Source: a virus. From it: a DNA stretch of 27,608 nt. Position numbers and translations under genes: made by a program. The notes below the pieces were generated by a model. It was not told the origin of the DNA, made no database searches, and saw only the letters and a list, made by a program, of their open reading frames with translations. Shown here in pieces: positions 17,074 to 22,870 of the stretch (the first letter of the stretch is position 1; the number at the start of each line of letters is the position of its first letter). The stretch lies in IMG/VR virus record IMGVR_UViG_3300041809_001880, positions 1 to 27,608 of that record; one strand, written 5' to 3'.

Positions 17074-17886
17074 TTATTTCGCTGGAGCCGCAGCTTGCGG
17101 CTGTGCATGCCGGTAGCGGCTGTAGAGATCGCGATCCTCGCTCAGCAACACTTCCGTCGCCTTGGCAAGGTTGGGAAGTTTCCGCTCGCTCATCAAGGCT
17201 TGCGAGCGCTGGGCGATTTCCTCCTGGACGTTTGAGAACTCAACTGTGCCGCCCAGGCCGCGCGCGTTGAACAGGTCGCGCGCCGGACGCGTTTCGATCC
17301 ACCTATCAAACTGCGCCACATCGTTCATCGCCACCGAAAATGCAACCTCACGATCGGTGGGTAGGAGCTTACCTGCGCCAAATGCAGCATCCACATGGTT
17401 TCGGGCGCGCTCAGCAGAACGCCGCTCAGCCCGCGTAAAGACTCCGGAGTCTTCTAGCGCGTCCACCGCTTCTTCATTAACCGTGTCGGAAAGGTAGATT
17501 TTAGTGAGTTCCTTGCGCGCATTGGCCGACCGGCCGGCCGCCATCGCGTGAGAAAGGACTTCCTGCAGGTCCTCAGTTGTCTTTCCTTCGCTCGCCAGGA
17601 ATTTCTTTATGGTTAGCGCAAGAGGTTCGAGTGGACCGATACTCTTGCCGCGTTCGATGATCGCCTTCAGATCTGCGACATTCACCGTATCGCCGCCACC
17701 AAGCTCGGAAAGCACCGCGATGCGTATGGCGTCCTCGCTGGCCTTGGCGCCCTCGCACATATCAAGATGCTCTTTCGAGTATTGACGGAGATGCTTATCC
17801 TCGATTTGAAACGCCGGCCCGTCCGGACCGTGCACCTCATGCGTGCCATCGGCGGCGCACTTCAATTGTGCTTTTGGTAGAGCCAT
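17074..17886 (-). CDS. Nested scaffold protein start (Mu gpZ-like)
   Basis: Inside the protease gene an in-frame ATG at 17886 (MALPKAQLKCA) has a near-perfect ribosome site (AGGAGG, seven bases upstream), stronger than that of the full-length gene. It would make a 270-residue scaffold lacking the protease. Mu makes its scaffold gpZ from inside the protease gene in the same way. The start is seen in sequence; expression is inferred. Confidence 0.65.
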   Translation of the reverse strand: MALPKAQLKCAADGTHEVHGPDGPAFQIEDKHLRQYSKEHLDMCEGAKASEDAIRIAVLSELGGGDTVNVADLKAIIERGKSIGPLEPLALTIKKFLASEGKTTEDLQEVLSHAMAAGRSANARKELTKIYLSDTVNEEAVDALEDSGVFTRAERRSAERARNHVDAAFGAGKLLPTDREVAFSVAMNDVAQFDRWIETRPARDLFNARGLGGTVEFSNVQEEIAQRSQALMSERKLPNLAKATEVLLSEDRDLYSRYRHAQPQAAAPAK

Positions 17887-18486
17887 GACTTTTCCTCCTT
17901 CCGCCGAAAGGCGGAGTGACTTTTCAGTGTTTGAACTACTTACAAACTCAAGTTCACCTTCAGCCAGGCGGATCTCCGGCATTTCCTGGATAACAGGCTT
18001 GTTTGTCAGGGCCACGCTCGTGAGCGTCCAGCCTTGGGGCTCGCCAGTCTTACGGTCCGGGCACGGGCTGATTGCGGGAGAGATTTGCCGATACTCTTTG
18101 CTGGCGATTAGCTCCCGAGCTTTTCCCGTGGGCTCATACCAGCCCCACACAATCTTCTGCCCGGTCTCACCAAAATATTCCGGGCTGTCGAGCTTTGTGA
18201 CTTTTCCCGCCGAAGGGGAAGGGCCAAGGAGGCCCTGCAATGGGCTTTCGCTGGCGTGGTCGTAATCCACGTTGACGCCATTGGCTTCCTTGGCAAAATT
18301 GGTGACAAGGTCATCCAGCATCGCCTCAGTGAGGTCGATCTCCTGGCCGGACTTCTTAACCCAGCGGCCCGTGAGCGCAACGGGAATGCGCACCAGATTG
18401 CCAGTGAAAGGCAGGTCGGCAAGCATGATGACGAACCGTGCGGTATTTTCGACTTTCGATTTTCGACTTTCAATTTCACTCGCCAT
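17074..18486 (-). CDS. Mu-like prohead protease with C-terminal scaffold domain
   Basis: A 470-residue protein. Residues about 20-200 are the Mu gpI-like prohead protease: IPVALTGRWVKKSGQEIDL, VNVDYDHASESPLQG (His77 possibly catalytic), ELIASKEYRQISPAISP and LTSVALTNKPVI. Residues 201-470 are a helical scaffold part ending YSRYRHAQPQAAAPAK. The ATG at 18486 lies just after a repeat, and the first residues (MASEIESRKSKVEN) are repeat-derived. It precedes the decoration and capsid genes, as in Mu. A second start inside the gene would make scaffold alone. Confidence 0.8.
   Translation of the reverse strand: MASEIESRKSKVENTARFVIMLADLPFTGNLVRIPVALTGRWVKKSGQEIDLTEAMLDDLVTNFAKEANGVNVDYDHASESPLQGLLGPSPSAGKVTKLDSPEYFGETGQKIVWGWYEPTGKARELIASKEYRQISPAISPCPDRKTGEPQGWTLTSVALTNKPVIQEMPEIRLAEGELEFVSSSNTEKSLRLSAEGGKVMALPKAQLKCAADGTHEVHGPDGPAFQIEDKHLRQYSKEHLDMCEGAKASEDAIRIAVLSELGGGDTVNVADLKAIIERGKSIGPLEPLALTIKKFLASEGKTTEDLQEVLSHAMAAGRSANARKELTKIYLSDTVNEEAVDALEDSGVFTRAERRSAERARNHVDAAFGAGKLLPTDREVAFSVAMNDVAQFDRWIETRPARDLFNARGLGGTVEFSNVQEEIAQRSQALMSERKLPNLAKATEVLLSEDRDLYSRYRHAQPQAAAPAK
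17887..17914 (-). promoter_or_regulatory. Internal ribosome site with upstream hairpin
   Basis: AAGGAGG at 17894-17900 lies directly next to an exact stem-loop CCGCC-GAAA-GGCGG at 17901-17914. In the mRNA the hairpin abuts the ribosome site of the nested scaffold and could tune its use. Confidence 0.55.
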
Positions 18487-18529: not shown

Positions 18530-19624
18530 TCACCTGATTGCCAGGAACGTATAAACTCCCGCTGCCGGCGTGCAGGCCGCAGCCGTGAGGACGGTGAAGT
18601 ATAGAGTGACGGAATTGCTCCCCGTCGCTCGTGCACTGGTTGCCGGACAGAGGGACGTGGGCGCCGGCTGCCCGATCAGCGTGACATACTCGCCTGAAGC
18701 TATGCCGGTGAGAGTGAATGCCTGCCCAACGGTTTGAATGGCGGCCGACGTGGCGGCCGGAGAAATCGACGCCGTGGAAAGCTCAAAGAGTTGCGGCGAA
18801 ATTTCTGATTGTCCCGAGAAGGGGAACGCCGCCACCGGCACGTTGGACGCGTTGGTGGTCATCAGCGTCACGATGACGTTCCCTGCAGCATCCGCGGTAT
18901 TGAACGAGTTGGTGAAACTCAGGCTGGATCCCGACCCCGGCCAATAGATGAAGCCGCAACTGGAGTAGGCGGGAGGCGCACAGTTGCTCAACGCTCCACC
19001 GCTCAGCGTCACGTTTCCAGGAGCAATTTGCGTCTGGGTAACGCCGATCGTAACCACGCCGGCTCCGTAGGTCTGAGTGCTGGTGGACGAGCATCCCATG
19101 CAGGTGGCGCTGGTGCCTGCGCCCGTTAGTGCCGGCAAGGTATATTCACTGAGGAACTGCGAGTATGCCGACCCCGCGGCCGCGCCTCCCATGGAGCCCG
19201 TGCCGGTCAGTAAAACAACCTGTGGGCTTCCGGTAGCATTGTCGGCAATTGAAAGGGAAGCTGATCGCGCGCCGGCCGCCTGCGGAGTAAACGTCACAGC
19301 AAGCGTGCAGGTGGACCCGGCAGTCAGCGAGCCGCCGCAGACGCTTCCAGGAGTGGTCGCAACCGACCAGTCGCCGGTATTCGTCCCCGTGATGCTGATG
19401 GACGACAGAGTCAGGGTTGCCCCGCCCGTGTTCATCAACGTAAAGTTCACCGCCGTGGCGGAAACACCCACAGTGGTTGCGGACCAGCCCCAGCTCTGCA
19501 CCGCTTCCGTGGTGTTGGGCTGATAGATGCTCGCAATCTGGCCGAAAAGAGCGGTAGGTAGAAGGCAGAAAGCAGTAAGCAGTAATGCCATTGCCACGGA
19601 CTTGAAGCTTGTGATCTTCTTCAT
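18530..19624 (-). CDS. Secreted ASH/Hydin-like (choice-of-anchor D) domain protein
   Basis: A 364-residue protein with a Sec signal peptide (MKKITSFKSVAMALLLTAFCLLPTALFGQ) and an ASH/Hydin-type beta-sandwich at about 45-130: VNFTLMNTGGATLTLSSISI, then GSVCGGSLTAGSTCTLAVTF, then SLSIADNATGSPQVVLLTGTG. This domain is frequent in Acidobacteriota. The C-terminal half is another beta-rich, Cys-containing part. The ATG at 19624 has GGAG seven bases upstream. It is not a phage structural family and sits between the fused portal and protease genes, so it is probably a cargo gene acting at the cell surface. The target is unknown. Confidence 0.7.
   Translation of the reverse strand: MKKITSFKSVAMALLLTAFCLLPTALFGQIASIYQPNTTEAVQSWGWSATTVGVSATAVNFTLMNTGGATLTLSSISITGTNTGDWSVATTPGSVCGGSLTAGSTCTLAVTFTPQAAGARSASLSIADNATGSPQVVLLTGTGSMGGAAAGSAYSQFLSEYTLPALTGAGTSATCMGCSSTSTQTYGAGVVTIGVTQTQIAPGNVTLSGGALSNCAPPAYSSCGFIYWPGSGSSLSFTNSFNTADAAGNVIVTLMTTNASNVPVAAFPFSGQSEISPQLFELSTASISPAATSAAIQTVGQAFTLTGIASGEYVTLIGQPAPTSLCPATSARATGSNSVTLYFTVLTAAACTPAAGVYTFLAIR
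19551..19588. repeat. Heptad array (GGCAGAA type) in the signal peptide of the ASH protein
   Basis: GTAGGTA, GAAGGCA, GAAAGCA, GTAAGCA and GTAATGC follow in 7-base steps and encode LLTAFCLLPTAL of the signal peptide core. Confidence 0.75.
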
Positions 19625-19650
19625 CGTTTTCTCCTTTGCGAAGGTCAGTA

Positions 19651-19693
19651 CCGGGGTTTCCCCGAGTCCCGTATCCCGAGACCCGTGGCCCGG
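19651..19693. repeat. Heptad array (CCCGAGT type) between the two secreted-protein genes
   Basis: CCGGGG faces CCCCGAGTCCCGTATCCCGAG with a TTT loop, followed by CCCGTGGCCCGGC. It fills the gap before the ASH gene. Confidence 0.7.
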
Positions 19694-19695
19694 CC

Positions 19696-20217
19696 TTACT
19701 TGTAGACGACCGAGATGGTGACGGGCGCGCCCGTGCCGTAGCTCGAACACGCAAATGTGTACTTGGTGGTTTCGCCAAAACCCAGTGCCGCCGTCGAACT
19801 GGCAGTGGCACTTGTAACGCTGGTGGTGCCGAGCTGCTCGATGACCGACCACGCGTTCAGCGTGTTGCTGGTGGCCGTAACCGAAACCGCCGATCCCAGC
19901 GTTAGAAAATTGGTGCCGTCGTAGCTTGTCTTGGCCTGCACCGTGCAAGTGCCATAACTGCCGGTGACCGTGCCAAAGTTCCACTGGATATCGGCGCGAT
20001 GCGCGCCGCTTGTGGGCGTAGCGCCCGTAGTGGCAGTTGCCCCGGCAATCGCGATGGTGGGATTGTCAATGATCGCCCCGAGCGGCAGTATGCGCTGCGA
20101 GCTGTAGGCATCAGCATGGACGCTGGGAGTTGGCAGTAGGCAGTAGGCAGTAAGCAGCAGGCAAAACGCCACTACCGCCGATATCAGCCACGCGACTTTC
20201 GAGTTTCGATTTTCCAT
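19696..20217 (-). CDS. Small secreted beta-rich protein of unknown function
   Basis: A 173-residue protein with a Sec signal peptide (hydrophobic [21 protein letters not shown] and a VHADA-type cleavage site near residue 36). The mature part is Thr/Ser/Ala-rich and beta-like (IQWNFGTVTGSYGTCTVQAKTSYDG, YTFACSSYGTGAPVTISVVYK), similar to small tail or adhesin modules. The ATG at 20217 is chosen because GGAGG lies nine bases upstream; the GTG two codons earlier is too close to it. It precedes the ASH gene, so the pair may act together outside the cytoplasm. Confidence 0.65.
   Translation of the reverse strand: MENRNSKVAWLISAVVAFCLLLTAYCLLPTPSVHADAYSSQRILPLGAIIDNPTIAIAGATATTGATPTSGAHRADIQWNFGTVTGSYGTCTVQAKTSYDGTNFLTLGSAVSVTATSNTLNAWSVIEQLGTTSVTSATASSTAALGFGETTKYTFACSSYGTGAPVTISVVYK
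20130..20164. repeat. Heptad array (GGCAGTA type) in the second signal peptide
   Basis: TGGCAGT, AGGCAGT, AGGCAGT, AAGCAGC and AGGCAAA follow in 7-base steps. On the minus strand three heptads (21 bases) encode seven residues, giving [10 protein letters not shown]. Confidence 0.8.
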
Positions 20218-20239
20218 GTTCACTTCCCTCCGCCTTCCA

Positions 20240-20274
20240 ATGACCCGATGGTCCGATGAACCGATGGCCCGATT
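20240..20274. repeat. 8-base-period repeat (CCGATG type)
   Basis: TGACCCGA, TGGTCCGA, TGAACCGA and TGGCCCGA repeat in steps of eight, not seven, in the gap before the portal stop. It reaches the stop codon. Confidence 0.65.
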
Positions 20275-22870
20275 AATTCACCGGCTCCACGCTGGGCTGA
20301 CACAAGCAGAGATTTCCGCCCTGGCAGATTACCGAGAGGTCCTGACCCGGCTCGATCTCCGTGCCATCCGCCTTGATGCACGGGTCGCAGCTTCGCGGCT
20401 CCATGGCGCAGATTCGCACCTGGTGGAAGCCTTGAGCCTCCAGCGCTTCGCGAATCTGGTAGAAGGCCTCGCTCCGCGCCACGCGCGTAATGCCCCTTGC
20501 CGCCTCGCCCGCGAAGTTATCCATGTAGCCATCGGACAGGCCTTGCAGCGTGTTTTCAACCGCTGTCTCATCCAGCGTTTCATCAGGGCTGGAAGCTGAA
20601 ATCATCCGCGCGGATTTGCCGATCTGATTGATGACTTTCTGAACCGTCATCTCCGCCCACAAACCAGCGCGCTCGGTAAGAACAGGAAGGTCGGCAGATA
20701 GGCAGATTGGCAGGTCAGAGCGTTCGGCCATCTGCCTGCTGCCCACCTGCCGAGCTGCCACAGCACGTTTCGCTTCTTCCACGGCCAACGCGTGCTGTGC
20801 GCGATACGCCGCCGCCAGGATGGGTGTCAACTTGTCATCCAGTGCCTGGTTATGCCCAAACGTCATGGCACTGGAATCTGTCTTGGTGCGATGTTGCTGG
20901 ACGGTGGAAGCGGCAATAGGCTTGATAACCGCTGTTTTCGAGGCTCGAAGAACCCGCGCAATTTCGTTTTGCGTGTGGTCCATCGCCCGTTGGATCTCGG
21001 GGAAATCGATGTGCGTCTCGTGCGCATGGACCTTGCGTAAATGCTCTGGATGTCCCTCGTGCCAGAACGGCGAGTCGGTGTCGCGAAAGCGACCCAGTGA
21101 CAAGTGACGAGTGACGAGTGACGAGTCAGAAAGATGAATTGCATCCGCCCTTTGCGCGCTTTGAGTCTGTGGTTTGCCGCCTACTGCCGACTGCCTACTG
21201 CCTACTGCCGACTCCCCGCTGCCTACTGCCGCCTGCCCACTGCCGCCTACCCCTGGCACTGAGGCCGTCGCTTTGCCTGGCAAAATCGTTTCCCCGCTCT
21301 TCAGGTCTTCGTGCGAGAGCGCCTGGAATCCCAGTTCACCGCGCAACTGATTCAGTGAGCCTTCATCGGAGATCCACGCGCCCGCCGTAGAGAGTTGACT
21401 AATCGCTTTCACGATGTCATCAAGACCGCGCGCTTGAACGTTTGAGGCTTTCAGCATGGGTACCGGTGCGCCCACGCCGAAATTCATCTCGATAAGCGGC
21501 TTCAGAACTTGGTTGCGAATGCAGTTGGCGACGAAGTCAGCGGAAAGCTGCAAGGCCAGCATGAAGAAATCGGTTTGCCCCTCCATCAGCGCGCGATTGC
21601 CGCCCGAGCCGCCGCTCTTTTGGCCGCCGCCCTGCTGCATAAACATGGCGAGCAGCGAGCGCGCCATCTGCATATCCTCATACTCGATGGTGGGCAGGAT
21701 CTCTCGCGGCGTGCCCTCCACGGCGAGAATCTTCAGCTCCGCGCCATTCGGCAAACTCAGGCCGGTCTTCTCATGAATCGCAAGCTGGGTAACGAAATTC
21801 TGCGCGGTCTGCTTATCCTCGGCGCTGGCGTTGGGAGGCAGGATGATGACCGGAACCCCCATGCCGTTCCGTTCGCAGGCAATGGCATTCAGCCGGCGCA
21901 GAATGGCCTTCACGAATTTATGGGGATACATCGGGCGCGTATCGGGGAAACCCCAGAAGTTCGCCCCCTCCTGATTCGCCGTCACGCGCAGGATTTTGTC
22001 GGCAGGCAATGTGGGCGTAATGAACTGACCGCCGCGCCAGCCATACTGTTGAAGCGCGTAAAGAGTTTCGCCATCATCATATTTGCCCTGCGGCAAACTG
22101 TTGTCCAGGATCCACGGGTCGGTGTGCCATCGGTAGAACGTTAGCGCCTGGCGGTCCGCGAGGCGAGCCACCATCAAGCGCGAACCCTCCACGCGATAGA
22201 CGATCTCGGCAATCGAGCAGCCAAAAGTGTAGGCGCGAAGGCAATTCCGCAGCACGTCATCGAAAGTCTGGCTGACTGTTGCGCCATGGACGGTGCGGAA
22301 TTCCAGGCCGCCGAAAAGATTCTCCCGGCAAAAGTCGGTGCTCTCCTGGCGCTTGTTGGCGGTGTTCCGGCCGGCGCCGTTACTGCCGACTTTCCCCGTC
22401 CCCTGCTCTTCGGGAGGCGGCGCCACTTCCCAGCGCGCTGACTCAATCGGCCAAGTACGCGCGTTGAGTAGGCCTCGCACCTGGCCGTCGCCCCGCCGCA
22501 TCTTCTCGTAGACGCGCACTGCCTGCAGGCCGCGAATCTGCGGGTCATACTCACCCAGGTCGGTGATAAATCCGGAGGGAATGGCGGTGCCGGAAGCGCC
22601 AAACAGAATCGTGTAGCCCTGCGCAACCTTGGCCTGAATCTCGCCAATGGTGGCACGCGGAATGCTGGGAGGAAGAGGCACAGGGGCTGGAAAACCGGGG
22701 GCTAGGGACTGGGGATTAGGGGTTGGGGAACCGGCACCCGACACCTGATACCCTAGCTCCGTATCCGCCAGCGTAACCGCACGATCGGTGCGAGCCTGAA
22801 GCGTGTTGCGCTCGGCGTGAATCACCCGCGCTTCCCGAATCTTTTTCGAATTGGAGCCTTTAGCCTTCAC
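20273..22870 (-). CDS. Portal fused to MuF-type minor head protein
   Basis: An 865-residue protein that combines two Mu-like genes. Residues about 100-540 are a Mu gp29-like portal ([72 protein letters not shown]). Residues about 600-865 are MuF-like: FRDTDSPFW, then [17 protein letters not shown] and [13 protein letters not shown], ending GGNLCLC. The joint and its surroundings (about 540-600 and 705-730) are heptad-coded linkers ([39 protein letters not shown]). The GTG at 22870 has only a repeat-like AGGGTGA upstream. It forms the DNA entry ring of the head, with MuF inside. Confidence 0.85.
20691..20754. repeat. Two-armed heptad array in the MuF part
   Basis: GGCAGAT, AGGCAGATT and GGCAGGT on the left face ATCTGCC, TGCTGCC and CACCTGCC on the right. 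Read in frame it encodes the linker with [14 protein letters not shown]. Confidence 0.75.
21096..21252. repeat. Heptad arrays in the portal-MuF linker
   Basis: AGTGACA, AGTGACG, AGTGACG and AGTGACG (21096-21127) and CTGCCTA/CTGCCGA units (21178-21252) lie in frame inside the fusion joint and encode SLVTRHLSL and [18 protein letters not shown]. Confidence 0.8.
22694..22756. repeat. Heptad array (GGGGCTA type) in the portal N-terminus
   Basis: GGGGCTA, GGGACTG, GGGATTA and GGGGTTG followed by CACCCGACACCTGATACCC. It encodes the Pro-rich [17 protein letters not shown] linker near residues 47-63. Confidence 0.7.

Follow-up and report, generated by a model that had tools for sequence, protein, structure and literature searches.

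Repeats built from seven-base units have been described in several bacteria. The closest systems are those of Xanthomonas and Nostoc, in which heptameric repeats of the GGGAATC and GGGGA(C/T)T types have been reported (PMC4692102). The repeats considered here resemble them in having seven-base units that are mainly intergenic and near gene ends, and also in the inverted pairs, of which Xanthomonas carries about 70-75 per genome in convergent orientation while Nostoc has few (PMC4692102). They differ in one respect: the Xanthomonas and Nostoc heptads are treated as G-quadruplex or regulatory elements, whereas one arm of a repeat codes here for the hydrophobic core (h-region) of a signal peptide, and the main text of that paper nowhere uses the term 'signal peptide' (PMC4692102). 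Geobacter metallireducens likewise has dispersed heptad arrays inside and between genes; however, these are annotated as putative regulatory elements, and no link to signal peptides was found in the available part of the article (PMC2700814).

Two further systems share individual traits with the present case. The tandem repeats of Borgs evolve rapidly as nucleotide repeats that are turned into protein, often in exported or membrane proteins, but according to the consulted part of the source their in-gene units are all multiples of three and code mostly for disordered stretches, whereas the unit here has seven bases and codes for a hydrophobic targeting signal (PMC9879509). The heptanucleotide repeat of hmw1A in Haemophilus influenzae also affects a surface-protein gene, yet it is described there as switching expression, while the repeat studied here is degenerate and coding (PMC8262952). 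A literature search, which mostly covered sources other than subscription journals, found among its listed entries no article in which heptads write signal peptides.

Genes A and B in a Mu-like Phage

The stretch of DNA analyzed here, referred to as the window, measures 27.6 kb and is an IMG/VR fragment from a Mu-like phage, in which the portal, protease, terminase and major head protein were matched. The portal, B, A and protease genes described next lie on the minus strand. The Mu-like portal gene (20273..22870; Portal_Mu, phrog_113) is followed by gene B (19696..20217), which encodes a protein of 173 amino acids without a family match, and then by gene A (18530..19624, the start being at 19624), which encodes a 364-amino-acid protein with an ASH/HYDIN-like Ig domain, judged from sub-threshold ASH/HYDIN matches, and with the N-terminus MKKITSFKSVAMALLLTAFCLLPTALFGQ. 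Downstream of A lies the gene for the Mu-like head maturation protease (17074..18486). Within the portal gene, a 9.6-copy heptad array (21179-21245) codes for a linker-like stretch, and the N-terminus of the protease (ESRKSKVEN) is likewise heptad-coded (20/28). The terminase has matches at 1e-3 in nine of 297 Acidobacteriota genomes, the best E-value corresponding to 31% identity; gene B was matched in none of the 297, in a search run without a positive control.

As read from their deduced sequences, A and B begin with signal-peptide-like N-termini that would export their proteins. The n-regions are positively charged (MKKITSFK in A, MENRNSK in B), the core of A (ALLLTAFCLL) is uninterrupted when read directly from the sequence, and in B and in relatives the best 10-residue hydrophobic window exceeds the threshold of our home-made signal-peptide filter. 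B passes this filter with its HADA cleavage site. A, with ALFG-Q and thus Leu at -3, misses the filter's -3 rule; its counterpart in the related phage locus L128 passes. The structure model of B has an N-terminal helix (residues 6-26) followed by an all-beta part, with a mean pLDDT of only 61.5. A lipobox motif ends in Cys; inspected directly, TAFC and TAYC have Phe or Tyr at -1 and do not conform to it. Shine-Dalgarno sites are present at both starts. The initial annotation had considered that the true starts might lie downstream of the repeats; for A, this is disfavored by the strong Shine-Dalgarno site together with the conserved n-region.

Heptanucleotide Arrays in the Signal-Peptide Regions

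The h-region array of A (19560..19585, minus strand) is of the CTGCTTA/CTGCTTT type, was reported by Tandem Repeats Finder as two overlapping rows, reads TTACTGCTTACTGCTTTCTGCCTTCTACC on the sense strand and codes for LLLTAFCLLPT; it covers the entire h-region. That of B (20128..20163, minus strand) is of the CTGCYTA type (Tandem Repeats Finder, 5.1 copies, 86% matches) and reads CTGCTTACTGCCTACTGCC on the sense strand. In B, a second and different heptad of the TCGAAAN type (20193..20214, minus strand) codes for the n-region residues ENRNSKV. The region between B and A holds an array with a 14-base period (19661..19692, minus strand; CCCGAGACCCGTAG on the plus strand), and the leader of B contains a period-8 array (20236..20273, minus strand) located precisely at the stop codon of the portal gene, next to the heptads; both were recorded by Tandem Repeats Finder. 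At a strict threshold of 13/14, the window contains nine runs of period 7 and seven of period 14, with zero to one for each of the other periods between 4 and 15.

The best 28-nt stretch at lag 7 scores 22/28 in A (first 35 codons) and 24/28 in B (first 40 codons), while lags 5, 8, 10 and 11 in the same N-termini give only 8-12 (A) and 9-13 (B) matches of 28. One might suppose that this merely reflects chance, since signal peptides are rich in Leu, Ala and Thr, and leucine-rich stretches of CTG and CTT codons look periodic. When the identical peptides were recoded with random synonymous codons according to the codon usage of the window, the observed lag-7 score was attained in 0 of 5000 trials for A and 2 of 5000 for B; the period thus sits in the DNA and not merely in the peptide, and with the lag controls this makes the chance explanation highly improbable. 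The observation in the initial annotation that both hydrophobic cores are coded by seven-base repeats is confirmed. In B, the repeat takes up the C-terminal half of the h-region and extends toward the c-region, the initial part of the h-region (WLISAVVAF) being non-repeat.

Heptads might also serve as phase-variation switches: seven cannot be divided by three, so that one unit more or fewer would put the mature protein into another frame, and phase variation has been offered as the explanation for N-terminal repeat enrichment (Lin and Kussell, cited in PMC4692102). Those in A and B are short as well as degenerate, with about three near-perfect copies at most, so that slippage should be rare; the long, near-perfect array typical of a contingency locus that is able to slip is absent from both genes, and we consider a switch quite unlikely. 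Nor do A and B display the inverted pairs of the Xanthomonas type: no complementary upstream arm was found by folding z-scores or by eye, the folding of the leader RNAs in the window shows no excess (z of -0.44 for A and -0.65 for the other of the two genes), and the B-A intergenic array has no complementarity by eye to the array of A.

Relatives of A and B in Other Phages

The comparison with related phages rests on six loci, some of which are copies of one contig. In L128/L130, this part of the late operon likewise contains B and A (62% and 69% identity, respectively), and in L127 it contains B (59% identity). In L515, whose terminase matches at 53%, just a 259-bp gap is found where A and B sit elsewhere, which makes A and B resemble optional cargo. 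Their N-termini are kept in relatives at 57-69% identity, and their period is either retained or partly decayed. The A protein of L128 preserves MK-I-S-K...LLLxAFCLLPxALFGQ with 23/28 at lag 7. Of the first 30 codons of A, 10 are identical between the window and L128, 9 differ synonymously and 11 are changed, the figures for the remaining codons being 104, 129 and 101; the signal is thus no more conserved than the mature part. The B gene of L128 has an n-region of about eight GGAAACT-type units and a longer CTGCC-type array, the array length differing between B of the window and this 62% relative. Hence, in both B genes, repeats of two unrelated heptads write part of the n-region and part of the h-region. 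In L127, B keeps AAYC while its periodicity has faded to 17/28, a score attained by 149 of 5000 recodings.

Across 79 related phage loci, N-terminal heptads were found in seven of 1228 genes, three of them signal-peptide-like and four other (p = 0.047, which is weak), and there were no N-terminal hits at lags other than 7. One related phage has a lipoprotein-like N-terminus that is heptad-coded (L578, 1605-2042; LLIYCLLPIACCLTLSSC). Two viral contigs (L200, 7154 onward; L269, near 1312-1470) encode related small proteins with AQDAAxCxTVAEAEQIA, in which the n- and h-regions both look heptad-coded and the arms look complementary.

Taken with the periodicity, the Shine-Dalgarno sites and the findings in other families described below, these comparisons lead us to regard it as likely that A and B are secreted cargo candidates whose signals are largely decayed heptads, and that arrays at gene junctions can serve as an h-region.

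Coding Properties of Heptanucleotide Arrays

Because 7 = 1 mod 3, each of the three frames of a heptad array yields one and the same cyclic heptapeptide. Among the 2340 heptad necklaces, 1608 (69%) are stop-free, and this share amounts to 88%, 100% and 100% with five, six and seven pyrimidines. The mean hydropathy climbs in parallel from -3.1 without pyrimidines to +1.06 with seven, and heptads that have five, six or seven are on average hydrophobic. CTGCTTA gives LLTAYCL (hydropathy 1.96), and TTTTGCC gives FCLLPFA (2.27), its complement coding for GKRQKAK. A pyrimidine-rich array would therefore be expected to provide the same stop-free hydrophobic heptapeptide whatever the frame, and purine-rich arrays are a possible source of the charged n-region. 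The idea that a repeated heptad can write a hydrophobic, Sec-type h-region is upheld by these properties and by its occurrence in several unrelated secreted families and, with varying units, among the orthologs of one chaperone.

Heptanucleotide Arrays in Other Genomes

Trimers of CTGCCTA occur in at least 117 stretches spread over many phyla, and a degenerate CTGCCTA dimer is present in 35 of the 297 genomes of the Acidobacteriota sample. Most arrays are intergenic (139/191 in one set, 148/168 in another). Inverted pairs are frequent and have one fixed arm order (119 'up' neighbor counts, every pair being counted twice), and among the matches listed the 'up' unit is absent from the 'down' neighbors. 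Dozens of heptads form inverted pairs in Acidobacteriota (L144-L150, L394-L413 and others), with an arm order that is, as far as seen, fixed for each unit; GTTTCAA, for instance, precedes TTGAAAC.

Only 8 of 427 CTGCCTA-type arrays pass a relaxed signal-peptide filter, and some of these eight look spurious. Heptads nevertheless code for signal-peptide-like N-termini of secreted proteins that are unrelated to one another. The clear cases, whose families were assigned by Pfam matches to the mature parts, comprise an OEP/TolC protein from a Prevotellaceae MAG (L030), a PD40-repeat protein from a Nitrospinae MAG (L071), and, in Acidobacteriota, an M16 peptidase (L312), a GH92 protein (L172) and an endo/exonuclease-phosphatase protein (L395), for which recoding gave a weak result (59/5000). 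When ORFs were called naively near CTGCCTA arrays, many N-terminal hits appeared that mostly looked antisense or had a true start apparently downstream, so that these counts were not used as evidence; a GGGATTC control on viral contigs (34 stretches, 41 arrays) is weakened by the same artefacts.

The initial annotation had gone further and proposed that heptad repeats could create new Sec signals, and hence new secreted proteins, from intergenic sequence. Stop-free, hydrophobic arrays that can be read in any frame do lie in many intergenic regions, and B has no relative among the Acidobacteriota genomes in the search that lacked a positive control. However, the clear cases with a recognizable mature domain belong to families that are usually exported, and of the 15 PLSDB plasmid records matching a heptad peptide, 14 do so in DNA without a listed gene, the PLSDB gene table being incomplete. 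Arrays are mostly intergenic, ordinary signals prevail in the chaperone panel discussed below (32/50), and the 794-gene sample shows no excess of heptads at N-termini. The proposed birth of secreted proteins is consequently not sustained, and we judge it unlikely.

A SurA/PpiC-like Chaperone with Exchangeable Heptanucleotide Units

One protein came to attention because its signal peptide in genome G206 is heptad-coded, which makes this member an ascertained case. The protein is SurA/PpiC-like, as judged from weak, sub-threshold matches, and its gene comes after a BamA-like gene (also a sub-threshold match). Orthologs were matched in 59 of the 60 genomes of the bacterial family sampled, and 50 of the 59 were read (30, plus 20 of the other 29) by scanning the 90 nt preceding the mature start at a threshold of at least 20/28. 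At lag 7, 18/50 orthologs reached it (17/49 without the ascertained one), compared with 1/50 at lag 8 and 0/50 at lags 4, 5, 10, 11 and 13; for L349, which is among the 18, the highest-scoring stretch lies in the n-region. The units include CTGCCTA, CTGCTCA, CTGCCTT, TTTTGCC, TTTTACC, CCCTTTA and TTTCTAC, among others, and amount to 10 canonical units, or nine once L358 is merged by hand.

At this locus, the chaperone, heptads replace one another. Parsimony on the mature-protein tree requires at least 10 changes in heptad presence, five of them forced by well-supported branches, and 16 changes of heptad unit; presence is clustered, as all 18 fall among 33 of the 50 rows. In the pair L344 and L345, the mature parts are 93% identical while the signal peptides are only 36% identical. 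This turnover of units is accompanied by matching upstream arms. A pairing of at least 17/21 with the upstream 160 nt is present at 14/18 heptad loci versus 3/32 others, and the pairing within the own locus has a mean of 18.4 compared with 15.5 when own and swapped combinations are all taken together (0/20000 permutations). Heptad loci have a mean RNA folding z-score of -3.39, the other loci one of -0.11, and in most of the 11 loci listed the purine-rich arm starts at, or just past, the BamA-like stop codon.

These very data are what one would expect if inverted heptad pairs were primarily intercistronic RNA or DNA structures, with the signal peptide merely tolerating their 3' arm, and inverted pairs are already known from Xanthomonas (PMC4692102). 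A good pair is, however, missing at 4/18 heptad loci, and A and B of the phage have no such hairpin. We hold this to be a serious possibility that falls somewhat short of being probable.

Alternatively, leucine-rich signals with T/C-rich codons may slip into heptads, the repeats then expanding within pre-existing signals. That 32 of the 50 chaperone orthologs possess ordinary signal peptides without heptads, the gene product being secreted regardless, is consistent with this. The complementary arms outside the coding region nevertheless match the unit inside it, the whole signal differs between L344 and L345 despite their nearly identical mature parts, and nearly all arrays in these genomes lie outside genes; an origin within the signal itself is possible, yet we lean against it. 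The same 32 orthologs indicate, in our view, that the repeats remodel the signal of an already secreted protein.

Control Panels and Genome-Wide Sampling

In an M16 panel, 3/29 scored at lag 7, one of them being the ascertained case, and there were no hits at the other lags. For the cytosolic MoaA (TIGR02666, above cut-off), 0/30 were found in the first 150 coding nt and 2/29 upstream of the start. The match to MoaA breaks in two at around residue 92 in eight genomes (G349, G328, G004, G309, G320, G343, G337 and G351), a pattern that resembles an in-frame insertion.

An unbiased sample of three genomes (1.19 Mb, 794 genes) contains 94 strict period-7 arrays, with periods 5, 6, 8 and 10 accounting for 0-13 in each genome. 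At a threshold of at least 20/28, heptad-coded N-termini were found in 1/206 signal-peptide-like and 1/588 other genes, with two genes at lag 8 and one at lag 13 as controls. Among the 794 genes of these three genomes, signal peptides thus revealed no genome-wide enrichment of heptads, which marks the junction at the chaperone gene as a hot spot rather than the rule. Signal peptides with period 7, whose search in further proteomes the initial annotation had recommended, thus do recur in several families and in the chaperone panel, but without a general N-terminal excess.

In the three genomes, no strand bias of arrays was found near gene edges, and the pyrimidine-strand bias near starts that was reported for Xanthomonas was not seen (14/28 arrays within 30 bp of a start). 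In a smaller set, arrays 12-45 codons from the start were pyrimidine-rich in 5/5 cases and C-terminal ones in 0/7; this set contains chaperone loci and is hence biased toward such a finding.

Heptanucleotide Arrays as a Possible Source of Secretion Signals

Returning to the phage locus, we propose that A and B would be secreted cargo proteins of a Mu-like phage and that decayed tandem repeats of seven bases appear to supply the greater part of their Sec-type signal peptides. In the mechanism that we envision, heptad arrays would be made at gene junctions in many bacterial genomes and in this phage, often as inverted pairs and probably by replication slippage; where an array extends one arm across the beginning of an exported protein's gene, that arm could become the h-region. 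Such arrays would renew signals already in place instead of giving rise to new ones, and the data as a whole suggest that simple repeats can rebuild secretion signals.

Signal peptides evolve rapidly and show little sequence conservation. Inverted heptad pairs might represent ready-made signal-peptide cassettes with which bacteria and phages repeatedly swap the signals of envelope proteins, using new units each time; we put this forward tentatively, as an idea with a little less in its favor than against it. If it is true, the purine arm would supply the charged n-region or lie before the start, and the complementary pyrimidine arm would supply a frame-independent hydrophobic core. Signal peptides would then turn over through repeat dynamics and not by point mutation alone, and a repeat that codes for a hydrophobic helix in any frame would offer a concrete mutational route for the renewal of signals. 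This would tie dispersed intergenic heptads, usually deemed regulatory or neutral, to protein targeting.
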